Part shown: positions 28,099 through 50,317 of the stretch, one piece after another
Position numbering within the stretch: position 1 is the first letter of the stretch
How the letters are laid out: the number at the start of each line of letters is the position of its first letter
Source of the DNA: Aurantiochytrium sp. KH105
Taxonomy: Eukaryota > Sar > Bigyra > Thraustochytrida > Thraustochytriidae
Direction: 5' to 3'
Assembly (NCBI GenBank): GCA_003116975.1
Contig: BGKB01000027.1
Coordinates: 310,001-374,000, forward strand
Length of the DNA stretch: 64,000 nucleotides
Position numbers and translations under genes: made by a program
Notes under the pieces: generated by a model
What the model was told of the DNA's origin: nothing
Seen by the model: only the letters and a program-made list of their open reading frames with translations
Databases searched by the model: none

Positions 28099-30486
28099 AT
28101 GCCGCGCAGGTTCAAGAAAGGTGACCTGGTGCGGCTGACGAATGATGGCTACGCCTTGGAGCGCAAGGGCTACGACCGCGCCATGGGCAGATATCTGGGC
28201 GAAGTTGGGCGCGTCACCGAGGTCCTGACGCTTGGGTCCGGCAGCGACACGCGCCACATCGTCACCGTTGATCGCTTTGGTAGCTTCTGGTAGGACGAAG
28301 ACGTCCTTTCTCCCGCGGACGAGGAGACCGATGAAGTAGACGACACAGAAAACCTCGCGCGCGCCGAAGACGAGGACACATCTCCCGCATCAGGCGCCTC
28401 CGAGACTCTTGGCACGCCGCGCTCTGGCAAAAATGTGGGCGCAGCTGCTCTTCGCAAGATCTTGCAAATGCTCGTGGAATCCGGAAATGAAGATAACGAA
28501 GCGGAGCAAGACAAAGAGGCCGGGCAGGAAGACCGCACCGAAGACCCCGATCGAGGCGAGCTGCTCAAAGGTGACTATGTCCAACTCGCAGTCAGCAAAA
28601 GCGAGCTGGAACGTCTCGCCGAAGGACATGGCGGGTATGTTGACGACATGGGCAACTACTGCGGTTCCTTCGGCTTTGTATGCAAAGTGATGCCCGAGCG
28701 ATGCATGGTGCAGGTCACCTCAATGGGAACCTGGTGGTACAACATGAAAGCCTTCCTCGTGGTGCGTCCGGTCGGCAAGCTCATCTTTGAGGGCAATCTT
28801 GTGCGGCTCACGACGAATTTGGAGAAACTCAGGTCTCAAGAGGACTACTCGTCTATCATGGACGAATATCTCGGCAAAATGGGCATCGCTACCAAGGTCG
28901 ACATGACCAAGATGGTCTGCAAAGTACAAGGCTTTGGTCACCTTTGGTATTCGCTGGACGTTACCGAGCGCATCAAGATTCCGCCTGGACTCAAGTGCGT
29001 CAAGTCAAACCATTTTGTCGGCGATCATACCCTGAAGCCATTTCGCACCACGCACTCGAAGTTCCGTTGCGACAACTGCAAAAAGTATCAACCTGCGCAA
29101 AGCTGGCTCCTTAGCTGCAGGAAAGACGACTACGATCTATGCTTGTCCTGCGCTGAGCCCAGGCTCGAAGAGCTCTTGCCAAATCCCTCGGCCAGAGAAG
29201 AGCCTCAACCGGCGTCCACAAGGCTCTCGCGCCGATCCTCTCCTCTAGCAACCACGATGCGTCGCTTGAGCCAAGCAACAGGTCGGCGCCAACGCCACAG
29301 CCAACCTGCAGCCGGATCGGTGCTCATTTGTGTCGTTTCGCGACATGAAGACGTCAGTGAACAGACCATCGCGCTCTTGGAAGGCCACACCTTGGACGCA
29401 AGCGAAGGCAGGGCATATCTCTTGGGCTTGCCAGAGTTTGGTTCTGGGGACGGCACAACAGAGGAGATTTTTGCACGTCACGTTGAGCGCATCAAGCATT
29501 GCAACTGCATGGTGGTAATCGTGACTCCAGAGTACTTTCAAAGCGAGTATTGCCTCTTAGAACTCGGACTAGCGGCTCGCTACGACATCCCCGTCTTCCC
29601 TCTTGCCATCTGCAAGGATAGCGAAGGTGTCGATAATCGCGAGGTCATGCGCCCGATCTTCGAAGTTTTCAAGCAGACCAAGGGCCACCTCACAAAGTCG
29701 TCGCAAATCTTTGGCGACCAGATTAACTGGCAAAGGTTCGATAGCGAACGGATGCAGGAACTTTGTTGCGGCACCGAAAACATCCTCAGAGGCGTGGAAC
29801 GTCTATACCTCGCCACCCAAGGAAACTCTCTCTTTCTTTTTGGCCCTCTCGATGACGCCGGGTTGATGCGTTCGAGCGCCGCCGATCTCTTGAAGCAGCT
29901 GCGCCCGGCCTGCAGCAATCCGCGCGAGACTTTTCACCGCTTTTGGCTTCCTCGTCTCGGATTGGCCGTGCGTCACATGACCCATCTACCACTTTCGGAA
30001 GGCATGGAATCGCATATTTTCCTGAGCCATGCTTGGGGTGCGGACCAGGCGATACACAAACGTGTGATTGAGCTGAAAGAGTCCCTTCGTAAGCGTGGGA
30101 TCACTGCCTGGGTCGACGACGGGCACATGCACCCCGGCTCATCCATCCAGCAAACCATACTTGGTGCAATGAGGGTTTCGCAATTCGTTGGAATTTGCGT
30201 CACGCAAGAGTACCTCGAAAAGTGTGATGAGGAGCCTGTCGATCCCCATTATGTTTCCGTAGAGTATAACTGGGCAACCAGACATCGCACACATCAAATT
30301 GTGCCCATTGTCATGGAGCCCGAGTACGCGTCTCGTGATGGGGACTGGGGCTATGGAAACCCAAGTATATTCCTTAGCAAATTGCTCAACATCCGCTACT
30401 GCTCCGAGGAAGACACAGTGGATAGGGTCGCTGAGCAAATTGAGGCACACATTCTCGACCAAGCGATCCGCGCGGGAACTATCTGA
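28099..30486 (+). CDS. Mind-bomb-repeat / ZZ-like / double-TIR protein, with in-frame TAG
   Basis: The frame runs from ATG 28099 (AAGATGCCG context) to TGA at 30484-30486, 795 codons, interrupted by one TAG at 28291-28293. Modules: three SH3-type repeats of the Mind bomb kind, starting KKGDLVRL, LKGDYVQL (with EGHGGYVDDMG) and FEGNLVRL; each ends in a W-Y pair (WWYNMKAF, LWYSLDV), and the TAG replaces that Tyr in repeat 1. Then a ZZ-like zinc finger (RCDNCKKY, CRKDDYDLCLSC), a Ser/Arg linker, TIR-A (about residues 405-570, Glu488 in SEYCLLELGLA) and TIR-B (about 638-790, HIFLSHAWG, Glu in VSVEYNWA). Both TIRs keep the Glu aligned with the NADase residue. If the TAG stops translation, an ATG further in (MLVESGNEDN, about 28468) would give a product lacking only repeat 1. 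Alternatives are readthrough or a recently inactivated allele. Possible role: TIR signalling or effector enzyme. Confidence 0.85.
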
Positions 30487-32998: not shown

Positions 32999-34624
32999 AA
33001 CGCGTCGACAAGCCGAAAGTCGGGAGGACGGACGGTATGTATGACCAGGCGCGTCTTTTTGTCGCGACGAGGGTGGATGTGAAATGAGTCGAAAAAGAGA
33101 CAGGGACGCAGTCGGGACCCTTGCATCGGCCATGCAAGGTCACCTTGCCATCGAGAGCAGCTGCAGCTGCCTGCGCGGCACGGCTGCATTCCTTTTTTTT
33201 CATTTCTCTTTTTTTTTCATTTTTCATTTTCTGTTTCTTTCTTTTTTGCTACCACGCTCCATTATCATTCGCGTGTCTGGGACTCGTCTCTTCTTCCCAC
33301 TCCGTCGCCACGGTTGATCATGAGCCCGCCGCAGTGGCCGCCGCTGCCGCTCCGCAACTCATGTGACTCACTGAGGGTAGAAACTGCGCGACGCAGGTTA
33401 TAAGAAAGATAAATAAACTCTTGGGTCTCACACGTCAACCACTTCTCAGACTCGATCCTGACAGAGATCGATCGATTGCAAGCGCGAACTCGCAGCCAGC
33501 CATGTGCAGGTCCACCGCAGCCGCAAGATCGGTCTCGGGGTGAGCACGAGCCAGCTGCAGCTGGTGTGGCTGCAGCGCAGCAGTCCTGCTGCACACGAAG
33601 GAGCTTGCTTTTCTCGCCCCGGAAAACCTGCGCAGCTCCCATAACCTGCGCTTGCGGCAGGCCCCTAACCCGTCCCTTCCTCCCCTGCTTCTGGTACACA
33701 CACACATCCGGCACCCTTGCTCTTCTCCACGCGCTCTCGGTGGCGTTCTCTCCACGGACCCGGACGCCCCGGGTCCCGGATACTTTCGCGGCCCGGCGCC
33801 GCAGCCGGCACAGGCCATGTCGGGCGGCGCGGCAGGCGCCCAGCACCGCGCGCCCTCCCTCCCCCCTCCCTCTTTCCCTCCCTGCCTCCGGCGCGGGCGT
33901 GCCTGCAGCCAGCTGCTTTCGCGCAGCAGCAGCATCGTCGCAGCGCCGCGCGGCCTCGCCAACCGCGCAGCTCCCGGCCGGCGCTCCCTCGCGCCCGCAC
34001 ACTGCCCTCCCTCCCTGGCCGCCGCCGCTCCGCCGCCCTGGTCTTACCCCGAGCGCGGCGCGGCTGCGGCGCGCCCCGCGCATTTCATCCGCTGCATCCC
34101 GCCTCGCGCCGCCCGTTCTCGGGCGCGGGGACGCGGCAGGTGCGGACATACACGCCTGCTGCTGCACGTGACACAGCAAGCAAGTAAGACGCGGGGCGAG
34201 GCGCGGTGGCGTACGCGCGGGGCGCGGGCTTCTCGCTTGCTGCTGCCTGGTTGCCGGCTGCTCGCTCGCGTTGTATCTTTCTCGCCTCCTTTCTTTCTGC
34301 GGCCAGCTGCGGACGGATGACGTCGCCGTGACGCTCGCGGGCTCGCTCGCGGAGGCCGCTCCGCCCCGCGCGCGTCGCGGCGGCGCCCACGAAGGCGACG
34401 TCATCGCGGGCGAGCTGCCGCTGCGCCTCGCAGCCTCGCCGGGAAGCAGCGGCGGCGGCGCGGATGAATGAAATGCGGCTCCCGCGCGGCGCCCGAGGTA
34501 AGAGGAGACGGCGGGAGGAGGAGGAGCTGCGTGCTGCCGCAGCTGCTGCTGCGCGGGAGCGGGACTGCCAAGATCTCCTTGCGGCGGCGCGGCTCGCTTC
34601 CAGGTGCAAAGCGCAGTGCAGTAC

Positions 34625-34660
34625 CGCGCGCGCTGCGCTGCGCTGCGCTGCGCTGCGCTG
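34625..34660 (+). repeat. (GCTGC)n short tandem repeat
   Basis: Six or so GCTGC units in GC-rich DNA. Confidence 0.85.
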
Positions 34661-35261
34661 CACCGTCTTACGGAGGAGGCGAGGCGGAGCGCGGTCGTGG
34701 CAGGCTCGCTGGGCGCGCATGCGTCCGAGGACGGGGAAGAGGTCGCGGAGCGGAGTGTATGGTATCCATGCAGCAGCCGTCCTGGCGGGCGGGCTGGCTG
34801 GTTGGCGGGGCAGGCAGGCAGGCGCCTCGCGCCGTTATTTTTTCATTTTTCTTTCTTTGGGGTTTTTTCATTGTTTCGAGTTTCATTTTTCTTTCTTTTT
34901 TCGGTCAAAAGAAATTCTTTCTTTCCTTCTTTCCTTCTTTCTTTTTTGAAAATAAATTCGAAAACGCGATCGAGCATGAGGAGGGAGGAATGAATTCTTG
35001 GAGGCGCAAGCAAGCGCAAGGCGAAGGAGGCCCTGCGCGCGCGCGCCGTTCCTGTCGCGCGGCCTCCGTCCAGCCGGTCCTTCGCGCCCGCGACGCCGCG
35101 CCGTTCCGCTTCGATCGCCCCGAGCCCAAGCCCGAACGAACAACCGGCCCGAGATAAAGAAGCCAAGATACAGTAAGAAGATAGATAACCTAACCCCCAA
35201 AAATTCGTGCTAACGTAGTTGCAGTAGTATCACCCATCCTCAGCCCCTCGCGGTCCGCCCG

Positions 35262-35303
35262 CGACGCAAGCAAGCAAGCAAGCAAGCAGGCAGGCAAGCA
35301 AGC
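35262..35303 (+). repeat. (AAGC/AGGC)n tandem repeat
   Basis: Tetranucleotide tract of AAGC units with AGGC variants. Confidence 0.85.
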
Positions 35304-35330
35304 CTGCGCCCTCCTCCTCCGCGGAGAGAG

Positions 35331-35367
35331 GCCGAGCCGAGCCGAGCCGAGCCGAGCCGAGCCGAGC
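35331..35367 (+). repeat. (GCCGA)n tandem repeat
   Basis: About seven perfect GCCGA pentanucleotide units. Confidence 0.95.
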
Positions 35368-35839
35368 AGAAGCGCGGCGTCCGTCCGCGGGCCGTCCATC
35401 CCTTGCTGTTCTTCTGCGTCCTGGACATCCGTCCCTCTGTATCTTAGCCTCTCTTGTCTCGTCTTATCTTATCTATGGCCGCCGCCGCAGGCGCTGTTTC
35501 CTTTCGGAAGGGACGCGCCGCGCCGGAAGAGCGGCGCCGGTGGTGGAAGGCGCGCGCAGCGCAGGGCGGCCAGGAACTGCGGCGGAGGAGGAGGCAGGGA
35601 GCGGGCAGGACAGGGCAGGCCAGGTGCTGTCGCTGTCTGGCGAAGGCAGGGCCGGCTTTCGTGGTTTCTGATGGCTTCGACGCTTGGTTGTTTGCTTACA
35701 TACCAGTCTTTTCTCCTTTTCAGATCTCCTTCTTTTACCTTTCCTTTCTTTCTCTTTTTTCTTTTTCCACGAAATTATTTTTCTTTCGGGTTTCAAACCT
35801 TCTTTCTTTCTTCCTTTCTCGTTCTTCTCCTCCTTGCTC

Positions 35840-35915
35840 TTCTTTACTTTACCATACTTTACTTTACTTTACTTTACTTTACTTTACTTTACCATACTTT
35901 ACTTTACTTTACTTT
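35840..35915 (+). repeat. (ACTTT)n pentanucleotide repeat
   Basis: About 15 ACTTT units with two ACCAT interruptions, about 230 bp upstream of the PEPCK start codon. It may affect promoter structure, which I cannot judge from sequence alone. Confidence 0.95.
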
Positions 35916-35970
35916 GCTGGGCATGGTCTCTCTGCTAGTTTGGGGTGTGAGGGAGTGAGTGAGAGTGGTT

Positions 35971-36018
35971 TCCCTTCCTTCCTTCCTTCTTTCTTTCTTT
36001 CTTTCTTTCTTTCTTTCG
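35971..36018 (+). repeat. (CTTC/CTTT)n pyrimidine tract
   Basis: All-pyrimidine tetranucleotide tract ending about 125 bp before the PEPCK ATG; probably 5' UTR or core promoter. Confidence 0.9.
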
Positions 36019-36142
36019 TTTTTTCGAAGGCAGGGCCAAGCTGGAGCGGCGGCGCAGCAGCAAGCACGCAAGCAATCCCGCAACCCGATCGCAGAGACCT
36101 CCGGCACCAACGAGCCCGGCGCGACAGACGAAGGAGCACAAG

Positions 36143-38392
36143 ATGATGCTGAGCCTCCGCAAGGCGGTGCGCGCGGGCGCGCGCAGCCAGCAGGCCATGC
36201 GCGTGGCCGCGGCGCGGTTCTCGACGAGCGAGACCCTGAGCGCGAGCGACCTCAAGCTCGAGGCGTACGGCATCAACAACTCGTCCGCCACGGTGTACCG
36301 CAACCTCTCGTACGAGGACCTCGCCAAGCATGAGCGCGAGGGCAACGAGGGCGAGGCCACCAAGGACGGCGTCTTCTCCGTTGACACCGGCATCTTCACC
36401 GGCCGCTCCCCCAAGGACAAGTGGTACGTCGAGACCGAGAGATAAGAGATCAAGAGAGAGAGAAACAGAGACACAGAGAGAGACGACGCCCTCCCTCCGC
36501 CAACGCCAAGATCCTCGACCCCAGCCAGCATCGTATCCACCTTGCTTGGTCACGCCGATGTTGCATTGCACTCTTGCACAATTGCACTGCATTGCAATCC
36601 GATGCGTTGCATTGCAGAGGTGCGCAATGCCGACCAGCAACGGTGCACGCCCTATGCATTGCACCAGTGACGCTTGCCTGCTTGCTTACTTTCTTGCTTG
36701 CTTGCGCTTCTTAATGGCTGGCCAGCTTGGAGGAAGGACGGCGTAGGACATGGACGAGGGACGCACGGACGGAAGAAGGAAAGCGAGAGAGAGAAAGAAG
36801 GGGAAAGAAGGAGAGGAGAGAAACGGCGGGCGTAGGTGCGCTTGCGCTTGCGCTCGCCAGAGAGAGAGAGACGCGGAGATGGGGGCGAGAGGGCGGTGAC
36901 ACGCGCGCGTGCCCTAGGGAGCGAGAGGACGCGAAGACTGACAGAGTGCGTGCATGAATGACTGAATCGATGGAACAACAGGATCGTCAAGCAGATGCCC
37001 TCCGCAGAACACCTCGACTTCGGCCCCGTGAACCAGCCCGTGAGCGAGGAGATCTTCGACGAGCTGTACGAGAAGGTCGTCGACTACTACGGCACCGTCC
37101 CCAAGATGTACGTCAACGACCTCTACTGCGGCGCCAGCCCCGCCTCGCAGAGGCCCGTCCGTTTCATCACCGAGCTCGCGTGGCAGGCCCACTTCACCCG
37201 CAACATGTTCATCCGCCCCGAAACCAAGGAGGAGGTCAACAACTTCGAGCCTGCCTTCACCGTCATCAACGCCTGCAAGCTCTCCAACGAAAAGTGGAAG
37301 GACCACGGCCTCAACTCGGACGTCTTTGTCGGCTTCAACATCGAGAAGAAGGTCGCCATCATCATGGGCACCTGGTACGGTGGTGAGATGAAGAAGGGTA
37401 TCTTCTCCATGATGAACACCTGGCTTCCCCTCGAGGGCACCCTCGCCATGCACTGCTCCGCCAACAAGGGCAAGGACGGCTCCACCGCCCTCTTCTTCGG
37501 TCTCTCCGGTACCGGCAAGACCACCCTCTCCGCCGACCCCAACCGCGCTCTCATCGGTGACGACGAGCACGGCTGGGACGACCACGGTATCTTCAACTTT
37601 GAGGGCGGCTGCTACGCCAAGACCATCAACCTCACCGAGGAGAACGAGCCCGAGATCTACCGCGCCATCAAGGCCCCCGGCGCCCTCCTCGAGAACACCA
37701 TGATCAAGGACGGCACCCCCGACTACTTTGACACTAGCAAGACCCAGAACGGCCGCGTCAGCTACCCCATCGAGTACATTGAGAACTTCGACAAGGAGCA
37801 GATGGGCGGCCACCCCAAGGATGTCATCTTCCTCACCGCCGACGCCTTTGGCGTCCTCCCCCCGGTCTCCAAGCTCACTGGCGACCAGCCCATGTACCAC
37901 TTCCTTTCCGGCTACACCGCCAAGGTTGCCGGCACTGAGCGCGGCGTCACCGAGCCCACCGCCACCTTCAGCACCTGCTTTGGCGCTGCCTTCATGACCC
38001 TGCCTCCCGCAAAGTACGGTGAGCTCCTCGAGAAGAAGATTGACACCCACAAGACCAACGTCTACCTCGTCAACACCGGCTGGAGCGGCGGTAGCGCCAC
38101 CAGCGGTGCCAGCCGCATGAGCATCAAGGACACCCGCGCCTGCATTAACGCCATCCTCGACGGCTCCATCCTCGACGCCGACTTCCAGACCGAGCCCTTC
38201 TTCAACCTCCAGATCCCCAAGGCCCTCGGCAAGATTGACCCTAAGGTCCTCAACCCCCGCGATGCTTGGTCTGACCCCGCCGAGTACGACGCTGCCGCCA
38301 AGAAGCTCGCCGATATGTTTGTTGAGAACTACAAGCAGTTCATCAAGCCCGGCCTCAAGGACTTTTCTGCCGGTGGCCCCCCGCAGAACTAA
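36143..38392 (+). CDS. PCK: ATP-dependent phosphoenolpyruvate carboxykinase, two exons
   Basis: Exon 1 is 36143-36423 and exon 2 is 36982-38392; the 558-bp intron (36424-36981) has a GTACGT donor and an ACAACAG acceptor. The join restores [15 protein letters not shown], the expected PEPCK sequence, and gives 563 aa. Catalyses oxaloacetate + ATP to PEP + CO2 + ADP (gluconeogenesis or anaplerosis). Seen: [12 protein letters not shown], the kinase-1a P-loop in [20 protein letters not shown] (kinase 2/metal), and NTGWSGG. This is the ATP-type enzyme (bacteria, plants, fungi, trypanosomatids), not the GTP-type of animals. The N-terminus ([15 protein letters not shown] to [11 protein letters not shown]) is Arg-rich, lacks acidic residues and has an RFS-type cleavage context, so mitochondrial targeting is likely. 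Start chosen as the first of two adjacent ATGs. Codon use is strongly C-biased in the third position, suggesting high expression. Confidence 0.97.
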
Positions 38393-39463
38393 TTTGCTAC
38401 ATCACCCTTAAAACAACTGCGCTGTCCGCTATTTTGTTCCTCCTCCTCGCCTCCAGTCTCTCTAGCTTGGCCACTCGTTCTACCGCTACACCACCATCAG
38501 CACTTTTACCTGTTTAGAGTTGTTACCAGCCAGGGTCATGATTGACTAGGGCACAAAAACAATGTCCGAGGCGCGGACGGGCCACAGCGGCAGCCGCAAA
38601 TGCAGTCGTGTCGTGAATCCTTTTCTGTATGTGACTGTGTTGGCTGCAGGTAGCTTGCCAAGTTCGCCGCTCTTCAAATCCTCAGATTTGACCTTTTCGC
38701 TAGTGTGCTGTTCGTAGACTAACAAAGGCCAGCTGGCTGCGGCCCCACCACGCATGGTAGGTTTCCCGAGTTTGTGGCGCATAATGAAGTGTCAGTGGCA
38801 GGCTTTTCAAATAGAATAGAACAAGCAAGCAGCCACAAAGGGAAATGGAAGGCGATTTTTAAAACTCACCAATGTATAGTAAGACTATACGAAAACGGCG
38901 TCTGTTTCCTTGGTTGCTCAACCAGCCACGGCGAGCCAGCTGACTGTGAGACTGAGTGTCTCGCAAGTCAACTTTATTTTATTATTGTAGTTGTAGTTGT
39001 TTTGAATGTAGTTGCTTGATTCGTTTTCAGGATGGTCACAAAAGGAGTGCTGGCATCGGTCATGCTGCGACAAGCGAGATGGACGAGTTGCAGCAATCAT
39101 GAAGAGTCCCTCTAACTTACGTAGACCTGCGTCCAGACATCCGAGTCTACAACAAACCTTGCCGTTCTCGCTACGAAATTGCAACTTGATCTTCAGCTCC
39201 CCTCGTTCAGGCAACCAAAACAAGCCTAGCTGCTCTCGCTTCTTGAAGTTTCAGCTCCTCTTGCTACCACGACAGCATCGTCTTTCGCTCAAATAACTGC
39301 AAGACGGTTCATTCACCTGTCAACGCTGCAGGCGACGAGCTATAGCTAGCAAGCTTTCGAAAGTAGTTCTAAAAGTAATGCAGCCAGCAAAAGCTGTCTT
39401 GCGCAACCCATTTTGCTTGTCTGTGCTGGACGTCGAGCCGCGACCACACACAGAATTGCGCCC
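38393..39463. other. Intergenic
   Basis: PEPCK 3' UTR and the promoter side of the LRR-NEL gene. AT-richer than the genes. No ORF or RNA gene is supported. Confidence 0.55.
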
Positions 39464-41851
39464 ATGGAGGAGCGCCGGCGCTCAGGCGCGTGTAGCCTGC
39501 TCAGCCCGTTGCAAAGGAACTCGCACAAGCGCCGGCGCAGACGCGACGTCCTCGCCGACCTCCTACGCGCGTGGAGCGCAGCGTACACTGAGGAGCAAAA
39601 TGTGGACGACCCCGAGAACGACGGAGGAGCACACGCTCGTCTGCTCGCCGCGCGCAAACTTGCTGCCGATCGGCTGCTTGAGACCTGCGAGCTGGTGACG
39701 GACAATACGCTACGCGGAAATGTGAACCTGGCCGGAATCGAGGACCTCGATACCTTGCCCGAGTTTCTGCATTGTGTTGAAGGAGACCTCGACCTCGAAG
39801 GCTGCACGGCCCTGGAATCGCTCGGAAATGACCTCGAGCTCGTGACTGGCAACTTGAATTGCCTCCGCTGCGCAAGCCTCGTCACGCTCCCGGGGCAGCT
39901 CTGTGTCGACGGCTGGGCAAATTTTGGGCGCTGCCATGCCCTGCAAGAGATCCCATCAGGCGTCAGAATTGCTGGCTGGGTTTCCCTTCACGGATGCACC
40001 TCCCTCGCTGCTCTCGATGGCCTTGCCAACGTCGGCGGCGCTCTCCGTCTGTACCAGTGCCAAGGCCTGCGCATGCTTCGCCAGCTTTCCATCCGCGGAA
40101 ACCTTGACGCTTCTGCCTGTGCGCTTCAGGACGTTGGTGGTTTGCGAGTTGGCGGCCATCTCGACCTAAGTCACAACAGATCACTGCGAGCGCTCATGGG
40201 CCCACTACGCGTCGGTTGGGCGCGCCAGCGCGCCGAAGAACTCTCTCATCCGCACGCATACTCTATCAATTTGGCCGACTGCGGCCTGCGCGAGCTTCCG
40301 CCAGACTTTCTCGAGATCAGCGACCAGGGCGGCATCAATCTCGCCGGCAACAATGCTCTCGAGTCTGTGCACGCCCTGCGGTGCGCTGTTGGAAAGCTTA
40401 ATCTGTCCAACTGCGTATCCTTGCGCGAGCTCGGCCCCGACCTGTCCGTGCTGTGGACACTCAATCTCGAAAATTGTGCACAGCTCCGTGCGCTGCCCTC
40501 GGGACTCTGTCTTCGAGGCGATCTCACAGTGAGCCACTGCGCCTCCCTCCTCGAGCTTCCTGCGGACCTCGAAGTCCTGGGCGACCTTGAATGCGTGAGC
40601 TGCCATGCTCTTGCCAGAGTTGGCGCCTTGCATGTAGGAGGTCGCGCCAATTTCGCACATTGCAATGCCTTGCACTCTCTCGACGCGGGAGCGACATTTG
40701 GCAATTCCATCATTCTCGACCAATGTGTGTCATTGCTCCGTCTCCCCGACGATTGGACAGTCGTGCATGGAGACCTTTCGCTCCGCCTCTGTGCGGACCT
40801 AGTTGAACTGCCTTCTGAATTGCGTCTCGTGCACGGCGTTCTCGACCTTTTCGGGTGCGCCAGCTTAAGGGCCCTTCCATCTGGTCTCATCGTGCGGAAA
40901 GGAACCGTTGGCTTTGACCCTGAGCAAACGCAACAAAGTCAACGCAAATGGTCTCTAGAGAGCGCGCTCGACTTTTGGTCTCCCAACGAGGATGATGAAA
41001 TGCGTGACCGGATGAGACGCGCCATTTGCTTTGAGCCCGCCTATGAGCGCAACATTGTCATCTTTCTTGACAAAGTGCGACACACGAAAGATTTCGCCAT
41101 TGCCCCGGAAGTCGTGCGCGACCAAGTGATCGATGCACTCGACCTGGTTGCCTCCGACCCGTCTAGTGATGCAGCTCAAGCCATACTTTTGCGCATGGCA
41201 GACGCCGTTAACGCTTGTCACGACAAGCCGGCGTGGGCACTCTCAGAGCTCCATGCACTCGCTCTCGTTGAAAATGCACGCGGAGATCGCGACGCGCTTC
41301 AAGAGATTGGCCGTCGCATGATGCGACTTGGCATGGTTCAGGACGCTGCGCTGGAGATTGTCCAGACAGACCGCACTCTCGACGACGTTTCTGTCTTTCT
41401 CGCGCTTCAGTGTCAGCTCAAGGAGTCTCTCGACCTTCCTGTTCTGGTGCAGGACTTTCTCTTTCGCAAACTCTGCAGCATTCAACCGGAGCGAGTCCAG
41501 GCCCTGGAGAAGGCAATCCTCGAGGTGCCCGAGTCGGCCTTTCAGACATGGCTCGCGGCGTGGTCACCGTGGCAGCGTCAGCTTCGGTTTGAGACGGCGG
41601 AGTCTCTCCGTCTCGCCCCCGAGAAACTTCCCTATGCCAAGGTTACGGCGCGCGACCTTTCCGCGGCGCGCGATCTTTTGGGAGAGAAAGTCGCAACGCC
41701 GGTCGTTTTGCGTGGGCATTCTTCCGAGATCTTTGACTTGGATCAGCTCCTGGATGTGTGGACGGCCACCGGCCGAGGCATCTCGCCCTCTGACCCGCTT
41801 TCCTCGGAAGACTTGCGCCACGCGCTTGCGCAATGTCGATCCTCGACGTGA
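39464..41851 (+). CDS. LRR protein with NEL-type (IpaH/SspH-like) E3 ubiquitin ligase domain
   Basis: 795 aa, intronless; the first ATG (39464, MEERRRSGAC) was chosen because the open frame upstream has no ATG. Residues about 75-480 are leucine-rich repeats of about 20-22 residues, with a pattern like LDLEGCTALESL, LHGCTSLAALDG, LSNCVSLRELG. Residues about 490-795 match the NEL fold of bacterial IpaH, SspH and SlrP effectors: catalytic C-x-D in NACHDKPAWALSEL (Cys585, Asp587; codon 41216), then a long helix pair, VFLALQCQLKESLDLP (IpaH has a YLAFQ..L.EKL-type segment here) and WLAAWSPWQRQL (IpaH WFSLWGPW-type). Known NELs transfer ubiquitin through this Cys and are restrained by the LRR. In this nuclear context it may act as a host E3 ligase, origin by transfer from bacteria being the simplest idea. 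No signal peptide or membrane segment. The assignment rests on remembered motifs. Confidence 0.85.
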   Translation: MEERRRSGACSLLSPLQRNSHKRRRRRDVLADLLRAWSAAYTEEQNVDDPENDGGAHARLLAARKLAADRLLETCELVTDNTLRGNVNLAGIEDLDTLPEFLHCVEGDLDLEGCTALESLGNDLELVTGNLNCLRCASLVTLPGQLCVDGWANFGRCHALQEIPSGVRIAGWVSLHGCTSLAALDGLANVGGALRLYQCQGLRMLRQLSIRGNLDASACALQDVGGLRVGGHLDLSHNRSLRALMGPLRVGWARQRAEELSHPHAYSINLADCGLRELPPDFLEISDQGGINLAGNNALESVHALRCAVGKLNLSNCVSLRELGPDLSVLWTLNLENCAQLRALPSGLCLRGDLTVSHCASLLELPADLEVLGDLECVSCHALARVGALHVGGRANFAHCNALHSLDAGATFGNSIILDQCVSLLRLPDDWTVVHGDLSLRLCADLVELPSELRLVHGVLDLFGCASLRALPSGLIVRKGTVGFDPEQTQQSQRKWSLESALDFWSPNEDDEMRDRMRRAICFEPAYERNIVIFLDKVRHTKDFAIAPEVVRDQVIDALDLVASDPSSDAAQAILLRMADAVNACHDKPAWALSELHALALVENARGDRDALQEIGRRMMRLGMVQDAALEIVQTDRTLDDVSVFLALQCQLKESLDLPVLVQDFLFRKLCSIQPERVQALEKAILEVPESAFQTWLAAWSPWQRQLRFETAESLRLAPEKLPYAKVTARDLSAARDLLGEKVATPVVLRGHSSEIFDLDQLLDVWTATGRGISPSDPLSSEDLRHALAQCRSST

Positions 41852-42788
41852 TCAATAACTTTATTTGATGTCATTTTGCCATGCTTGTTCGAAAATGTCT
41901 TGCGTGTCGTCGGTTAGAAGCTTATTTTATCCATCAGTGTCAAGACTCGCTGGTCGTGAACCGACCACTGCAAGTCCTTCATGTCCTCTGTCTCTATCCC
42001 TCTCGTTGTCTTTCGGGCCAGCCAGAATACCATACCGAGACGGACAATTTCTTCAGACTCTCTTTCCCGAAACCAGCCAGTATAAATGACGAGCGCGTGT
42101 AAACAAACGCTGCCTCTCTTTTTCCCGTTATTCCTGGGACGCGCAGTCCATTTTCGACGAGCCAGTCTCGAGCCGTGCTCGCGCCGGCTCCGCCGAAGCC
42201 GGCGCCCGGTCCTCTCCCAGCCCGCCGCAGAGGCCTCGCGTCGCGCGCGTCGCGCGGGCGGGGGGCCTCCGCGTCGTCGCCGGCCGGCACCGATCGCGCA
42301 GGGCGCGGCCGTGCAATGCGTTTCCCGGCGTCGGTCGCCACGCGCGGCACGCGCTTCAGGCCTGGGTTGCGACCCGGCGCAGACTCGGCCGGCGCCCCCC
42401 CGAGGCCGGGCCGCGAGCAGGCGGACGCGGCCGGTGCGGGGGCGCGGAGCGAGTCTCGTTTCGCGTTTGGCGCGCGGGCGAAGGGGGTTATAGCGGCGGC
42501 GGCAAGTGGAGAATGGGCGCGCGGCAAGCGCGGAGAGGGGGCGGGGAAGTGAAGTTTAGCGAGCGGAGGAAAGGGGAAACAGGAGGAGAGAGAAAGACCC
42601 GGAGAGGGCACAGCAAACCTCGATTGCGTAGGACCCGACGCGCTCGCAGAAGAGGCGCGCGCGCGGAGCCCGAGCGGAGCCCGAGCGGGAGAGCGAGCGG
42701 GAGAACGAGCGGCCGCGCGAGGAGTGGCGGGCTCGCCCGTCCGCGGGTCGGCCCGGTGCCGGAGGAGAAAGAACGCGATCTGGCCGTC
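41852..42788. other. Intergenic, GC-rich upstream of the coactivator gene
   Basis: The first 200 bp are the 3' flank of the LRR-NEL gene. 42150-42780 is very GC-rich and probably 5' UTR or promoter. The frame upstream of 42789 is open to 42513 but translates to Arg/Gly-rich sequence and is not counted as coding. Confidence 0.55.
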
Positions 42789-43805
42789 ATGGGGGCCGCC
42801 GAGCCGGGTTGGCAGGACGAGGCCCGCGACAGCACGGTGCGCGCCGAGAAGCTGCAGATTATCAAGGAGATCGTGAGGAACAAGATGGGCACGCAGAACG
42901 GGGCGCAGAGCCCTGCGGATCAAAAGGAGAAACTGGCGGCCACGATCGAATTGCGCTGCTATCAGAACGCGAAATCGCTCGATGAGTACACGAACAACTT
43001 CCTCATGGTCATGCAGCGCTTCCTCGTCATGGAAGCCAAGAAGAAGCCTTCAACGACAAATTCAAAGCCACTTATCTGTCCAGTAAAGCCCAAAAAGGGG
43101 CCTAAATCTGAGGCGAATCCTTCAGCCGTGCCTAAGGCGCGAAACCCAAACTTTTCCGGGCCCGTAAATGCGGCGGATCCAAAGACTCCCTCGCGTCAAT
43201 CAGGCGATATTCGGTACGGCCCCGGGCCCGAAGTGCGGCCAATGGACCCCCTCCTAGACCCGAACGCGGCGTTGCGCGGTGAAAATTCCCCTATCCCAGG
43301 GCCGGGAAACCCGTATTCTTACGGGCATAACCCGCAACTCTATGAGCCTTGGGCCCCGTTTCTAAACTACAACAATCTCTACGGTTCTCTGGACGGGACC
43401 GTGCCTCCGACTTTTGCACAGCAAATTCAGGTGCAACAGCATGCACACCATCATTCTTTGCCGGCAGTTTACATGGACTCGCAGCATGCAAGCCACCAGC
43501 AGCGTGTCCTCCAGCAGCAGCAGCAGCAGCAGCAAGGCTCATTGCAGCAGCAGCATGCGCCCTTTTCCCACCAGTACCAACCGCATCCTTCACTTGTGCA
43601 TAGTAGATCTCTGCCCGCTGGAGAAGGCCCCTCGACCTGGTCGGCGCACAATACATCTCCTAAACAGACGCCGAAGCGCCCTCGCTTTCAGGACACTGAT
43701 CACATGCAGCAGCAGTCTGGGGCTTTGTCAATGGATCATGGCGAGTTCATGGATGTGGTGGACCTGCTCGCGATTGACGATGAGGATGATCAGGCGCACG
43801 AGTAA
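42789..43805 (+). CDS. KIX-type, MED15-like transcription coactivator
   Basis: 338 aa from ATG 42789 (MGAAEPGWQDEARD), stop TAA. Residues about 17-80 fit a KIX-like three-helix domain: RAEKLQIIKEIVRNKMG, then KLAATIELRCYQNAKSLDEY and NNFLMVMQRFLVME, the spacing seen in plant and fungal MED15 and in CBP-type KIX. The rest is Pro/Gln/His-rich and disordered, with a polyQ run coded by CAG repeats (43511-43537), and ends in an acidic hydrophobic segment (DVVDLLAIDDEDD) that resembles an activation-type tail. Likely nuclear, bridging activators and Mediator. The start is less certain because the upstream frame stays open. Confidence 0.68.
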   Translation: MGAAEPGWQDEARDSTVRAEKLQIIKEIVRNKMGTQNGAQSPADQKEKLAATIELRCYQNAKSLDEYTNNFLMVMQRFLVMEAKKKPSTTNSKPLICPVKPKKGPKSEANPSAVPKARNPNFSGPVNAADPKTPSRQSGDIRYGPGPEVRPMDPLLDPNAALRGENSPIPGPGNPYSYGHNPQLYEPWAPFLNYNNLYGSLDGTVPPTFAQQIQVQQHAHHHSLPAVYMDSQHASHQQRVLQQQQQQQQGSLQQQHAPFSHQYQPHPSLVHSRSLPAGEGPSTWSAHNTSPKQTPKRPRFQDTDHMQQQSGALSMDHGEFMDVVDLLAIDDEDDQAHE

Positions 43806-43970
43806 ATTGTCATTGTTTTTAATATTCAGTCGATCTTTGTACTGCTTCTCATCGCTCTGCTAGCACCTCAGGGAGCTTAGAAAGTGTGGATGGCGGCGAT
43901 GCAAACATTGAGACGACCTGTTTTCTACTGGGTTCCACTGAACGAGATTGCGTTCATTTGCTTGTCCATT

Positions 43971-44034
43971 TGTTCGTTCGTTCGTTCGTTCGTTCGTTCG
44001 TTCGTTCGTTCGTTCGTTCGTTCGTTCGTTCGTT
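43971..44034 (+). repeat. (GTTC)n microsatellite
   Basis: About 15 GTTC units, near perfect, between the convergent coactivator and RING genes. Confidence 0.97.
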
Positions 44035-44097
44035 TGTTTTACTGTCCTTGACGTAGATGAATGTAAGGCGAATCACCGAATGCGCGTAGGCTCGTGA

Positions 44098-44682
44098 CTA
44101 CTGTATTGCACAAGAGTTGCCGTCGCCGCCATGTTGAGCCGATGTTTTGGCCAAATGCTTTGCTGCACCCTTGAACCGTCGGCGAAAACCAGGAGGCAGA
44201 TTCGAGCTTGTCGCGGTCGTATAAGCCCAGTATTCCTCGAGCTCTTCGCCCTCTCGATACTCGCGCATGTAAACAATCTCTTGCATGCATAGTGGGCAAG
44301 CGTGCCAGGCAGACTTGAGTCCACCCTGCGCAGACGTCTTGCGCCAAGGCCCGATGCGATGTTCGCTGATGCAAGCATCGCAAATGCACAGGTGATCGCA
44401 AGGAAAGAGAACCTTTGTGCAAGGCCGATCATCACTAGAACAGAGGCAGCAACGTATTGCCTCTGTTTCAAATTTGAGCGTCGCGAGATTGCGGGAATAG
44501 GGAGCTCTGGCAGCGTGATCTCTTGCGAGGCCCAAGTAATCTGGTTTCTTCACCTCGTCCTCTATGTACATGAGGTCCATCGTTTCACTCGGTCCTGTTC
44601 GAAGTTCGTCGTCAATTTCGGCATTCTCACTGTCTTCATACTCTTCATTGTAAAAATCATCATCGCTCGTTGCGTAGAACAT
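44098..44682 (-). CDS. RING-finger E3 ligase-like protein with CaaX tail
   Basis: 194 aa from ATG 44680-44682, stop TAG. The N-terminal about 45 residues are very acidic (DDDFYNEEYEDSENAEIDDE). A RING-type finger follows: CCLCSSDDRPC, then FPCDHLCICDACI, and after a longer loop ACPLCMQEI. The last four residues, CAIQ, form a CaaX box predicted to be farnesylated (Gln at the last position), preceded by GGDGNS. It is therefore probably a ubiquitin ligase tethered to a membrane. A TGA lies in frame a little upstream of the ATG, so the N-terminus is likely complete unless a 5' exon exists. Convergent with the coactivator gene. Confidence 0.85.
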   Translation of the reverse strand: MFYATSDDDFYNEEYEDSENAEIDDELRTGPSETMDLMYIEDEVKKPDYLGLARDHAARAPYSRNLATLKFETEAIRCCLCSSDDRPCTKVLFPCDHLCICDACISEHRIGPWRKTSAQGGLKSAWHACPLCMQEIVYMREYREGEELEEYWAYTTATSSNLPPGFRRRFKGAAKHLAKTSAQHGGDGNSCAIQ

Positions 44683-45650
44683 ATCTTGCCGCCCGGGCGC
44701 TTGAGACAATCACGTGCATGCAACAAAGTCAGACCCCGTTGACGTTTGCGTACTGCCACGTGCCACGATCGGTCAATGCAAACGTTGCCTCTCTTGTCAA
44801 TGGTTTTGCAGCCAAAGACTTCTCCTGATTCGAGCAAGCGTCTCCTTTGACAGCAGCCAGGCTGCTCGTGCTTGAGCGCGCGCGAGCGATTGGCCGAGCG
44901 AGGGTAATGTTGAGCGCGCGATGGTTTACTTGATCGCCTGCTCAAGCGCACATATGATGCTTTCCCCCCTCGCACAAGTGGACTGTTTGCTCGTCAAAGT
45001 TGGATTTTCGACCTCACTTCTATCAATGCCCTGGCGCTCTTGACTCTTCCAAAACTTAGAGTTCCCCGGTCTAGACACAACCTTTTGGCTTTGCAGATCC
45101 GTGCCTGCTACTGCCTTAGACCTGCTCTACGTTTCCCATTTATTTTCGCGTTGGTGTCGGGCTCAACTTGGCAAATTCTCGAGTCTGCGGACCTCTCGCG
45201 CCTTTGCGAAAGCGTGTGCGAACGTACGGCTATAAGAATCTGTGCTCCGCGTTATTCCTTTTCGCTCGCGAGGCAAATTTCACTCGACTCCTAGCACAGG
45301 CGACCACGCCCTCCACGCACCAGTGCCAGTGACCTTTTACCGGTATCGGTCGTGAGGTTCTTTGGACAAAGTTCGCACAAGCCACGGGCCGCTGCGCGTA
45401 GTTTGAGGCCCCGGAGGTCCTCCCCGATCGCGGAAGCACCGGGCTGGTACTCCAAGACCGCTCGGAACCTTTTGCGATTCTCAGTGTCAATGGTCGCTGC
45501 CGTGGCCAATGGTCCGCTCAACGGATCAATGACTCGAAAAGGCTTATAAAAAGGGAACGTCGCCGCTGCAACAGGTTGGCGAAGGCGGGATAGTACGAGA
45601 AGTTCCGCGATCGCATCGAACACACGTGCGTCGACTAAGAGGATAGCGGC

Positions 45651-45696
<46 letters not shown>

Positions 45697-46408
45697 TTAG
45701 CACCTTCCTGTCGGTAGCCATTTCGTTCTACTGGCTGGTCAGGGTTTTTAGACTCTGAGACACTCGCTCTCACATGAGTGGTCCCTCCGTCCAAGCGTGA
45801 TTTTCGTGGCGCAAGGGTGTAGCCTCGCTCGCTCTTTGTTGGGAGTCGCTCGCTGTCGCTTGCACGTTTGTTCGCTTGAGCGGGCGGATGGGCTGATGCA
45901 GACGGACAAACGGGACATGGCGTGGACCTACTTTTACTGCCGAATCCTCGTATATTTTTCAACTGTGCAAATAGCGTGGCACATGGTTGACAGATTTCCG
46001 TCATATCACACACAGTGCCGCGCCACTATGCAGAGAGGGGCGCGAATTTCGAGCACGCACTCGATTTGACCCCCCCTCTCTCAAATGAGTCAGTCCTTTG
46101 TCCGGACTCCCATAATGGAGAGACGCTGCGCATCAAGTTTGCACCCGAGAGACTTGTTCAAAGAGCACCGTCGACCTCTCTCAAAGGATGTTGCCACGTG
46201 ATCCGGTCTCTGACGTGAGTCGAGGTTTCTGCCTTCGGCCTGGCAGTGAGCTCACTGGCAGTCATCACTGCAACATGAAGCAGCATAAGCCAACGGACTT
46301 TTCTCTCCATCCCACCTCGCCTCGACCCCCCCTTGCCCCACCCCTTTTTTCCTGGGACTCGCGAGGCCCTCGGACGGAGCAAACCTTGAAAGTCGCAACC
46401 AGGAGACG
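44683..46408. other. Intergenic with (GCA)n tract
   Basis: 1.7 kb between the RING gene and the first sulfotransferase-like gene, presumably with both promoters. A minus-strand ORF of 240 codons (45291-46013) contains a polyAla run coded by the GCA tract; its remaining sequence is not recognisable and I do not call it a gene. Confidence 0.5.
45652..45695 (+). repeat. (GCA)n microsatellite
   Basis: About 14-15 perfect GCA units. Confidence 0.97.
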
Positions 46409-47941
46409 ATGAGTGGCGAGCGCGCGGCGCGGGGGCGATCGAGCCATACCGTTCGACCCAGACCGGAGGCGACTGATTATGCGAAACTCGACGCATTCAA
46501 GCCTGGCGTGCAAAAGGATCTCAAGGACACATCGACAGCAAGAGACGAGGACTTGCAAAAGCAAAAGGGCTGGACTACAGGACAATTAAGAGTCGCCGTC
46601 AAGTCTCTTAGTCTCGCAGTCGCTGTGCTTTTTTGTCTCGTATTATACCTCTCCGGGCAGACAAAATCTGGGTCATGGATCCAAGCGAGCTCTTCCGAGG
46701 TTCTGTACGCTGACACTACGGAGCATCACAGGGACCGGGCCCAGACCACGCATCAGAGCGAATGGGACTCTGGAAGTAGTGCTGGGCAACAGCAAAACCA
46801 GGTCGGGACCACGGCTCCTCAGGGGCCGGGACACGATGCGCCGACTGTTACGTCGCCAACGCGACAAGGGAATCTGCGAACACAGGCGAACATGCTCAAG
46901 AATGCCATCGCTGCTCACCCAAGTCATCCTGAAGAGAGAGCAGACAGCAAGTCCAAAAGAAGTCCTGTCACGACGCCGAAGAATGTGAAGACAATCGATG
47001 CCGGTTCGTCCGAGCCGAGACGAGATTCTCGCGTGATCTTTCTACCGTTTGAAAAACGTGGCAAAGATGGCTTTCGCGTCATTCACATTCCTAAAACGGC
47101 AGGCGAACTCTTTACGACCTTTGCTCGTCAGCATGTTTCCCCGAACGAGAAAAGAGAGTGGGACGAAGACTGCTTGCTTGGCAGAACCACACGCTGGGCT
47201 TCGTACGACCCCGAGGTCCACTTTGCAGCATCCTTTTTCCGCTCTCCGCAAGAGCACGTCCTCTCCCAATACTTTCAGTGTCTGCATGGGTGGGGAGGCA
47301 TATACGAGAGGGAGATTCGTCAATTTCCTCGTTCCGTGCCCAAGAAAAGCCTCGAAATGGCAGAAATTCGAATGACACGTGGAGTCTACTCGAGCAGCAC
47401 AAGTGCCCGTGCCAATTACGACAAACTTTACAAGCGAGCCATTGAAGGGATTGACAAGTGGCTCGACTTCTTTCTCGATGGATGGTACATTGAAAAAGGC
47501 TACTTTGGCTGCTACCACCCGTTGTCCATGCAGGTCCGTGCCATGACGTGCTACGGTCCGTGGGACTGGATGCACGGCATCTTTCAGGAGAGATATCTCA
47601 AACCGGACGTGCCGCAAGCCATTGCAAACATGCGTTCGCTGTGGTTTGTTGGCATCAAGGAAAAGGTGCACGAGTCGCTGTGCATTTGGGAGTATCAGTA
47701 CTCTCGCGAGCTTCCCGCGTATTGCGACTGCAAGAGTGGCTTGAAACGCCCAGCTCTGGAGTCTCATGTTCACGGCGTTCCCAAACACTCTCTTTCAGAT
47801 CTGTCGGCTGCACAGCTGGCCAAGATCGACAGACTCACCGAGGGCGACAAGGAGCTCTACGCGGCCACGGTGGACGAGTTTATGCTGCGTCTTCGTGAAG
47901 TGGAAGCCAAGACGGGCAAACAGATCTTGTGCCCCAAATAG
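46409..47941 (+). CDS. Golgi-type sulfotransferase-like protein, copy 1
   Basis: 510 aa, ATG at 46409, stop TAG, intronless. A short cytosolic N-terminus, one membrane segment at about residues 62-82 (LAVAVLFCLVLYL) and a Ser/Thr/Gln-rich stem give a type II topology typical of Golgi transferases. The catalytic part has a 5'-phosphosulfate-binding loop in VIHIPKTAGE (compare IPKTAGTS of family-2 sulfotransferases) and a 3'-phosphate-binding segment in FFRSPQEHVLSQYFQC. Later conserved parts include CYGPWDWMHGIF and the C-terminal VDEFMLRLREVEAKTG. It should transfer sulfate from PAPS to a glycan or protein Tyr; the acceptor is unknown. Copy 2 lies 1.1 kb downstream in the same orientation. 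Confidence 0.8.
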   Translation: MSGERAARGRSSHTVRPRPEATDYAKLDAFKPGVQKDLKDTSTARDEDLQKQKGWTTGQLRVAVKSLSLAVAVLFCLVLYLSGQTKSGSWIQASSSEVLYADTTEHHRDRAQTTHQSEWDSGSSAGQQQNQVGTTAPQGPGHDAPTVTSPTRQGNLRTQANMLKNAIAAHPSHPEERADSKSKRSPVTTPKNVKTIDAGSSEPRRDSRVIFLPFEKRGKDGFRVIHIPKTAGELFTTFARQHVSPNEKREWDEDCLLGRTTRWASYDPEVHFAASFFRSPQEHVLSQYFQCLHGWGGIYEREIRQFPRSVPKKSLEMAEIRMTRGVYSSSTSARANYDKLYKRAIEGIDKWLDFFLDGWYIEKGYFGCYHPLSMQVRAMTCYGPWDWMHGIFQERYLKPDVPQAIANMRSLWFVGIKEKVHESLCIWEYQYSRELPAYCDCKSGLKRPALESHVHGVPKHSLSDLSAAQLAKIDRLTEGDKELYAATVDEFMLRLREVEAKTGKQILCPK

Positions 47942-49015
47942 CGAACGTAGAAGCGTAAAGCCAAACTCTGATATTCGTTGGACCTGAACTTGGGCGAGCA
48001 GCTCGGGCATCAATGAAGGCGCCAGTCACAGCAGTGCTTGCATTCGTACCGTCGCTCAGCTGCGCCCGCGCGTAAGCATAGGTCCCGGCGACACAAAGGT
48101 CTCCTCTTTTGTGTGACGCAAGTTCTTCTCCTCCTTTTCACCTCCGAACGACCAAGGCGAGGAAGGAAGCAGCAGCAGCTGCAGCCTGTGATGCGCGCCG
48201 GCCTCCTTGACTGCCTGACGCTCAAAAGAGCCTCCGCTGAATGAGCGGGAGGGAAGTTTTGCTAGGCGACTGACTGACTCGCCTGCGTGATCTGCCGCCA
48301 TCGCTCCATCCAGCATAAGGTCGCGGTAAGCTACGGTGGCTTTAGCGAGCACGATGACAGACAGCATGGCTACCGCCCAAAGCCGCTCGCACCCGCGTCT
48401 TCACTCCGCACCGTGCACCGCGCCGCCTCGGGCGCCCCCGCGTGGCGCGGTGTGCTGCGCTGTGGTAGTTCGTTCCTGAGCTAGTATAGCTGCAGCCAGC
48501 AGCAGATGTGAGCGGGAGCGAGGGGGCTCAGGGAGGCCGCTGTGGCGCCGCCGCTCCAACCCGGCACACCGCGGCGCCACCGCGGCCGGCCCCGCCCGGC
48601 CTGCGAGGCGCCGCGCCTTTTGCGGCGAGCAAGCGCGAGCGAGGAAAGGCGACGCGGCAGGGCCGAGAGCGCGGCGTCGGGGCAGGGCGGCTCGTTGCGG
48701 CAGACGGAGGCCGGGAGTGGGATGAGGAGGCATCGCAAGGCATCGCAGGCACAGGCACGGCACGGCGCACGTGTGGCGGCCTGACTGGGACGCGAGCTTC
48801 CCGCTGCGACTCCGACCAGCGTGGTGCAGGGCAGACGCTGGCGAGTCTGCAGGTACCGGCGCTGGCGCGGCAGGCAAAACGCAAAACCCGATCGTGCGCG
48901 GAGCGCGAGGCCGGCCAGCCGCAGGCGCTGGGGCCCCGGCGTGGACCTGGGGAGCTCGCACGGGTTGAGCTGCGCGCGAACTGCTGATTGCGAACTGCAG
49001 GGGGCAGCAGGGACG
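47942..49015. other. Intergenic between tandem sulfotransferase-like genes
   Basis: 1.1 kb. 48400-49010 is GC-rich and probably the promoter and 5' UTR of copy 2. ORFs on both strands here are compositional. The upstream frame of copy 2 is open to 48821 but looks non-coding. Confidence 0.5.
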
Positions 49016-50317
49016 ATGCGGGAGCATGGGACGAAGGTGAGGCAGCCCAGCGTGAGGTGCATCTCCGTCGCGCTCGCGATTGTGGGCGTGCTCTCGCTCA
49101 CGTACCTGTGCTTGGTCTCGTGGAGGGCGAGCAGCGTGCAGCCAATGCGCGTGGAGTTTGGCCTCGGGAATGCGAACACCCGGGCCTCCCTTCGATCCCC
49201 GGAAACCCGAGCTTCAATTCATGTCGCGAGCAATGAGCGGGAGAGCGGACGCGAGGTCGCTCGAACTGAGGAAGCGTCTCAGGGAAACGAAGCATCGCAG
49301 ACGCCCGAGAAAACGCAGGCGCCCGGAGCAGCAACGCAGACGCGTCAGGATGAGTCTCCTGCGGTAAAAGAATCGCAGCACTCGCAGAGCTCACGACGAG
49401 ACTCTCGCGTGATGTTTTTGCCGCTCGAAAAACGAGGCAAAGACGGCTTTCGCGTCATTCACATCCCCAAAACGGCAGGCGAGCTCTTCATAAACTATGC
49501 GCGCAAGCACGTCGCTCCAAGTGAGAAAAAGGAGTGGGACGAAGACTGCCTGCTGGGCAGAACCACGCGTTGGGCGTCATACGATCCCGAAGTCCATTTC
49601 GCGGCATCTTTTTTTCGCACGCCGCGAGAGCACGTCCTTTCCCAATACTTTCAATGTGTCCACACATGGGGTGGCATGTATGAGAGAGAAATCAAGCAGT
49701 TTCCTCGCTCCGTGCCTAAGGGCAGCCTCGAAATGGCAGAAATTCGAATGACACGTGGAGTCTACTCGAGCAACACAAGTGCCCGTGCCAATTACGACAA
49801 ACTTTACAAGCGAGCCATTGAAGGGATTGACAAGTGGCTCGACTTCTTTCTCGATGGATGGTATATTGAAAAAGGCTACTTTGGCTGCTACCACCCGCTG
49901 TCCATGCAGGTCCGTGCCATGACGTGCTACGGTCCGTGGGACTGGATGCATGGCATCTTTCAGGAAAAGTATCTCACGCCGGACGTGCCGCAAGCCATTG
50001 CGAACATGCGTTCGCTGTGGTTTGTTGGTATCAAGGAAAAGGTGCACGAGTCGCTATGTATTTGGGAGTATCAGTACTCTCGCGAGCTTCCCGCGTACTG
50101 CGATTGCAGCAGCGGCGAGGAGCGCCCTGCATTGCTAGTAATCCGGCATGGTGTTCCAAAATCTTCTCTCTCGGATCTATCGGCTGCGCAGCTGGCCAAG
50201 ATCGACAGACTCACCGAGGGTGACAAGGAGCTCTACGCGGCCACGGTGGACGAATTCATGCTGCGTCTTCGTGAAGTGGAAGCCAAGACGGGCAAACAAA
50301 TCTTGTGCCCAAAGTAG
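49016..50317 (+). CDS. Golgi-type sulfotransferase-like protein, copy 2
   Basis: 433 aa from ATG 49016 (MREHGTKVRQPS), chosen because it puts the membrane segment (SVALAIVGVLSLTYLCLV) right after a short basic tail, as in copy 1; the frame is open 65 codons further up. Stop TAG. Catalytic motifs are the same: VIHIPKTAGE and FFRTPREHVLSQYFQC. The stem is rich in Glu, Gln and Ser and unlike that of copy 1, whereas the catalytic domain is nearly identical in protein and, over long stretches, in DNA, including synonymous sites. Acceptor unknown. The different stems may give different Golgi positions or partners. Confidence 0.8.
   Translation: MREHGTKVRQPSVRCISVALAIVGVLSLTYLCLVSWRASSVQPMRVEFGLGNANTRASLRSPETRASIHVASNERESGREVARTEEASQGNEASQTPEKTQAPGAATQTRQDESPAVKESQHSQSSRRDSRVMFLPLEKRGKDGFRVIHIPKTAGELFINYARKHVAPSEKKEWDEDCLLGRTTRWASYDPEVHFAASFFRTPREHVLSQYFQCVHTWGGMYEREIKQFPRSVPKGSLEMAEIRMTRGVYSSNTSARANYDKLYKRAIEGIDKWLDFFLDGWYIEKGYFGCYHPLSMQVRAMTCYGPWDWMHGIFQEKYLTPDVPQAIANMRSLWFVGIKEKVHESLCIWEYQYSRELPAYCDCSSGEERPALLVIRHGVPKSSLSDLSAAQLAKIDRLTEGDKELYAATVDEFMLRLREVEAKTGKQILCPK

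Follow-up and report, generated by a model that had tools for sequence, protein, structure and literature searches.

NEL-domain genes with a predicted U-box-like C-terminal module form a 16-gene family in the protist Aurantiochytrium sp. KH105

Can a ubiquitin ligase of the NEL type, reviewed as a bacterial effector family in the available sections of PMC9320238, be a native gene of a eukaryote, and what would it do there? This question is raised by an open reading frame (ORF) at 39464–41851 on the forward strand of a 64,000-nucleotide stretch of Aurantiochytrium sp. KH105 DNA, here called the window, which lies within contig 27 of an assembly of 76 Mb and 367 contigs. An earlier interpretation made from the DNA letters (the sequence-only reading) had taken this ORF for a NEL-type E3 ligase gene in a protist genome. 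On the evidence below, we consider it probable that the gene encodes a native intracellular ubiquitin ligase of the protist, with leucine-rich repeats (LRRs) for substrate binding, a NEL domain using Cys585 for catalysis, and a U-box-like module that aids the handling of ubiquitin carried by the ubiquitin-conjugating enzyme (E2~ubiquitin).

To describe the gene, its ORF and the parts of its protein are listed here.

39464–41851, + strand: putative LRR-NEL-(U-box-like) E3 ubiquitin ligase gene, a single open frame of 795 amino acids, whose start and length are matched by the copy in the other haplotype.
39464–39697, + strand: residues 1–78, N-terminal helical region with a K/R-rich cluster at residues 22–28 (from sequence and low-confidence model helices).
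39698–40903, + strand: residues 79–480, leucine-rich repeats of Cys-x-x-Leu-x-x-Leu spacing, putative substrate-binding part (from phmmer alignments, spacing and predicted fold).
40946–41620, + strand: residues 495–719, NEL ligase domain, with the Pfam core at residues 529–713 (41048–41602; from Pfam, phmmer and predicted fold).
41216–41218, + strand: Cys585 of the C-x-D motif, expected ubiquitin acceptor, invariant in 32/32 NELs of this genome and in all 29 bacterial rows retained.
41222–41224, + strand: Asp587 of the C-x-D motif, invariant in the same 32/32 NELs and in the bacterial rows.
41381–41383, + strand: Asp640, the third acidic position to be conserved (30 D and 2 E among the 32 NELs of this genome; 26 D and 3 E among the 29 bacterial rows).
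41651–41848, + strand: residues 730–795, C-terminal module of predicted U-box-like fold (from a hidden Markov model [HMM] and predicted models).

From its ATG at 39464, the frame runs without interruption up to a stop whose last base is 41851. The sequence-only reading had the blocks right: NACHDKP, FLALQCQLKESL and WLAAWSPWQ follow one another in the order that it gave. Cys585 and Asp587 of the Cys585-His-Asp587 motif stand at the correct positions. The profile check that it proposed was run, and Pfam-A NEL (PF14496) matched residues 529–713 with 93.1 bits (E 2.1e-26) against a cut-off of 24. Furthermore, phmmer against PDB sequences retrieved chains of IpaH, SspH1, SspH2 and SlrP from E 5.7e-19, the best match spanning residues 267–718. 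That LRRs are joined to the NEL domain was likewise borne out, by the phmmer alignments, the regular C-x-x-L-x-x-L spacing and the predicted fold, on which the LRR call is based; Pfam matched no LRR family in the window protein. Structural matches to the predicted model were led by SspH2 (E 1.2e-8) and also included SlrP and IpaH3. The pTM of the whole-protein model was only 0.52, and VIA-align of the whole model returned matches filled by LRR chains, so that it said little on the NEL domain or the module. A role of Asp397 in IpaH9.8 is described in the accessible text of PMC11354881, and Asp640 probably occupies that position. The window protein is therefore a NEL family member by domain, motif and predicted fold. 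Neither its scores nor its context make it a type III effector: it stayed under the NCBIfam equivalog cut-offs for IpaH_Shig (61.5 of 550 bits), SspH2 (60.5 of 1243) and SlrP (53.7 of 1113), and its host is not one with a bacterial secretion system, the locus being eukaryotic and syntenic between haplotypes.

Is the locus really that of the protist? The closest solved relatives are bacterial and the window NEL gene has no visible intron, as would be expected if the NEL genes were bacterial contamination or a recent, decaying transfer. However, when positions 33001–46000 of the window were compared by blastn with an 8.5-kb locus on contig 32, a single match of 8241 columns at 94.0% identity was obtained (window 35882–43995), and this haplotype block takes in a PEPCK gene, the NEL gene and the next gene.

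36995–38392, + strand: flanking ATP-type PEPCK, as context (Pfam 617.9 bits, profile positions 54–463 of 465).

Both haplotype copies of the window gene encode 795 amino acids and differ by 42 synonymous and 15 non-synonymous changes (ratio of non-synonymous to synonymous rates [dN/dS] 0.12). As for the flanks, described earlier as an intron-bearing PEPCK and a KIX coactivator, the PEPCK itself stood, whereas its intron was not demonstrated, the match beginning at profile position 54 and thus leaving room for an upstream exon; in the simple ORF at 42513–43802, Pfam found nothing at E 0.001, and the KIX assignment was not confirmed. PEPCK, protein kinase and TIR-WD40 genes share the window with the NEL gene. 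The GC content at third codon positions of the NEL genes (0.56–0.73) is enclosed by the range of three window neighbours (0.53–0.90).

The NEL model exceeded its cut-off at 32 places in the assembly, none with an internal stop, and at none in 14 control genomes, which excludes chance. By NEL domain identity, the 32 ORFs make 16 pairs at 96.8–100%, the next best match of any member being at most 75% identical; given this gap, we interpret the set as 16 genes, each present in both haplotypes. The pairs are spread over about 30 contigs, and their catalytic residues are kept as listed above. Across the 16 allele pairs taken together, 154.5 synonymous differences in the NEL domain stand against 33.5 that are non-synonymous; dN/dS is 0.069 there and 0.202 in the ORF parts outside it, with the C94 and C82 ORFs truncated where their loci end. 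Selection on the NEL domain is purifying. Pfam was then run on one ORF per allele pair. SPRY was above cut-off in L011 and L024, SAM in L016, LRR families in L011 and L024, and LRR_EndoS in L026, with an armadillo repeat in L015 just below cut-off (18.7 vs 20.6). The remaining ORFs, that of the window gene included, had weaker or no Pfam LRR matches, and LRR-like repeats of Cys-x-x-Leu-x-x-Leu type could be read by eye in several family ORFs. Thus, the substrate-side part varies (LRR, SPRY plus LRR, armadillo-like, SAM), whereas the NEL domain stays.

Two different NEL genes stand divergently about 4 kb apart in both haplotypes (C31:323992–329179 and C93:135042–140343). The ORF of the gene at C31:328652 (L009:2352–5201) begins with hydrophobic stretches, possible membrane segments as judged by eye.

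To place the family among its bacterial relatives, which the sequence-only reading had suggested, a NEL tree was built from 16 protist rows and 29 of 31 translated bacterial rows, the same set that served for the residue counts; L071 and L077, weak and lacking C-x-D, were dropped. Outside the row set were L054, L066 (internal stop), L074, L075 and L078 (partial matches), and L040–L043. In the unrooted tree, a branch with support 100/99 set the 16 protist rows apart as one clade separate from the bacterial rows. The window gene branched first from the other 15, with support (80/88) that is not strong. The protist rows shared their side with three bacterial rows of about 600-aa ORFs (100/97) against the 26 others, mostly of long ORFs. 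On average, protist NELs were 47.2% identical to one another and bacterial NELs 33.3%, and identity across the two sets averaged 22.5%. Among prokaryotes, a profile search found NEL in 9 of 398 sampled genomes (from the phylum of the Pseudomonas genome G001, G001 included), and scanning the genomes of 84,980 prokaryote species by pattern yielded only 4 confirmed loci, all Pseudomonas and 23–27% identical; because it works by two short peptide patterns, the scan fails to pick up remote NELs, as is evident from the profile search. In viral contigs, 7 stretches fit a pattern and none codes for a relative.

One clade of 16 genes fits a single entry followed by expansion, as far as an unrooted tree with one eukaryote's genes can indicate. 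The origin would be either domestication after transfer or a wider NEL family, and both agree with the alternatives offered earlier. Contamination or recent transfer, in contrast, is opposed by the synteny of both haplotypes across PEPCK, the 16 allele pairs, the purifying selection, the fusion of NEL to SPRY and SAM, and the single clade just 17–29% identical to the bacterial rows sampled, and we regard it as hardly credible. Contamination, which the sequence-only reading had named as able to overturn it, was rejected on the allele pairs, the selection and the haplotype block joining the NEL gene to PEPCK, and the same data upheld its central claim of a NEL-type E3 gene in a eukaryotic nuclear genome. 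The size of the family and its C-terminal module go beyond what that reading observed.

A module of about 60 residues follows the NEL domain in all 16 genes, weakly in one. A held-out HMM of the module matched 32/32 family rows vs 0/31 bacterial NEL tails, and all 28 matches to one query of the module in the genome lay within NEL ORFs. Two separate predicted models of the module retrieved U-boxes with Foldseek probability up to 0.99, so a U-box-like fold is predicted. A hydrophobic residue is kept in 15/16 rows at the first expected E2-contact position, which we take to be that of CHIP Ile235, both contacts being assumed by us from CHIP. The second expected E2 contact of U-boxes is the proline after T-G-x-D.

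Several observations weigh against a U-box-like, E2-docking module. The structural matches to U-boxes had non-significant Foldseek E-values. The proline after T-G-x-D is kept in 0/16 rows. None of the 11 U-box places (PF04564) found in the genome is a NEL ORF, and none of the 32 family members matched a U-box by Pfam at E 10; a Pfam-recognisable U-box was therefore rejected for the NEL ORFs. With the proline absent from 16/16 rows and the first contact kept in 15/16, a changed mode of E2 contact or a structural function has to be taken as a serious rival. In its full form, the rival holds that the family is a domesticated NEL working like the bacterial ones, with the module as a non-catalytic structural cap or dimerisation element. 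Some U-boxes, such as that of Prp19, dimerise, and the closest named structural matches of the module include the Prp19 U-box dimer. Moreover, NEL domains bind E2 unaided according to the accessible part of PMC7943720. Retention of the module with every NEL of the family, however, and the hydrophobic residue at the first contact position speak for an E2-related role, and we hold the cap or dimerisation element to be a real possibility but a somewhat doubtful one.

How might such a protein work? According to the available part of PMC7943720, NEL ligases resemble HECT enzymes in using a catalytic cysteine, have an E2 surface of their own and are inhibited by the LRRs until the target binds. Judged from its sequence, the window gene has the parts for this LRR-gated, catalytic-cysteine mechanism, and ligase activity of the family is likely. 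In the mechanism that we favour, the LRRs would bind substrate, and the helical NEL domain would take ubiquitin from E2 onto Cys585, assisted by Asp587 and Asp640, and then pass it onto the substrate. By analogy with bacterial NEL proteins, the LRRs would keep the NEL domain inactive until substrate binding. The C-terminal module would probably dock or position E2~ubiquitin, which would make these proteins two-module E3s of a NEL and a U-box-like part. A somewhat RBR-like relay, in which the U-box-like module holds E2~ubiquitin and the NEL cysteine takes the ubiquitin, is a plausible proposal. The data establish homology to NEL, the catalytic residues, a nuclear location, 16 genes, purifying selection and a C-terminal module; the U-box-like fold is predicted, and ligase activity, autoinhibition, the part played by the module and the substrates of the family are inferred. 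The K/R-rich cluster at residues 22–28 is a possible candidate nuclear signal.

The window gene is the most diverged family member, its NEL domain sharing no more than 40% identity with that of any paralogue, and this would suit a family that has lost ligase activity and acts as an LRR scaffold. Yet Cys, Asp and the third acid are all kept, and the scaffold seems improbable to us. An expanded family with variable substrate-binding parts is also common in effector sets, so the NEL proteins might be secreted and used by the protist against other cells. We have little belief in such secretion, as the window protein (P0001) has no signal peptide by eye and a charged, basic N terminus, and the NEL domain is conserved at the allelic dN/dS given above.

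Compared with known systems, the favoured intracellular ligase is most like the IpaH/SspH/SlrP effectors (PF14496, NCBIfam NF046045, NF011917, NF011897) in its LRR-then-NEL order, C-x-D motif, third acid and predicted fold, but the protist genes are nuclear, occupy 16 loci, have varied N-terminal domains and carry the added module. The large Pseudomonas NEL proteins (ORFs mostly 1600–2400 aa) share a NEL domain with C-x-D, whereas their tails are helical-looking and lack the module, and their mean NEL identity to the protist genes is 22%. U-box E3 ligases (Prp19, E4B/Ufd2) resemble the C-terminal module in predicted fold; the protist module, however, has no sequence-family match, is placed behind NEL and misses the post-T-G-x-D proline. 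RBR ligases combine E2 docking by a RING-type part with catalysis by a cysteine-bearing part. The protist proteins would share this pairing if the module docks E2, but they have no RING, IBR or Rcat sequence and their catalytic fold is unrelated.

Klebsormidium NLR proteins are reported to contain a NEL-like, LRR-type segment (PMC7145615), a claimed NEL relationship in a eukaryote; in the available text, however, what is matched is a superfamily domain of LRR type (ODAL), and no catalytic motif is presented. PF14496 is merely listed among search profiles in the part of PMC7029713 seen, and bacterial NELs are the subject of PMC6557245 and PMC11354881, to judge from the excerpts. Among the literature matches listed, with partial coverage, neither a eukaryotic catalytic NEL family nor a NEL/U-box fusion is reported. 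What is new here, then, is a NEL family of a eukaryote in which the substrate-binding domains are exchanged and a module of predicted U-box-like fold is added. It is rather unlikely, in our judgement, that NEL is an old eukaryotic E3 class joining U-box-like E2 docking to a NEL catalytic cysteine, from which the bacterial effectors descend with loss of the U-box-like part.

Other genes of the window were also noted. A long ORF at 16853–20989 (− strand), about 19 kb from the NEL gene, has a TIR domain, an NPHP3_N-type NTPase and WD40 repeats by Pfam; its NTPase reads as NACHT-like, which would give an NLR-like architecture in a protist. In the ORF at 28435–30483 (+), Pfam matched TIR in two stretches and also an SH3 repeat of Mind-bomb type. 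Positions 32–9241 (+) belong to an open frame of very large size (5708 codons in the genome search) with repeated ketosynthase-type matches, which reads as a multimodular polyketide synthase. A model of the omega-3 protein PfaA reached 930 bits at two places of the genome, under its cut-off of 1010, and 11 of 14 control genomes matched it too at E 0.001, so that it gives no more than a hint of a thraustochytrid. An ORF at 12317–13129 (+) looks by eye like a MULE-type transposase. Two tandem ORFs at 46409–47941 and 48821–50317 (+) have near-identical C-terminal halves, the former with no Pfam match at E 0.001.

Taken up again for the family, these data suggest that the NEL ligase class is not bacterial only. 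If the favoured reading is true, a 16-gene family with exchanged substrate-side domains around a constant core of NEL and U-box-like module would mean that ordinary eukaryotic cell biology makes use of the NEL fold; ideas on where NEL effectors came from could be tested, and the family may represent a new two-module E3 architecture.
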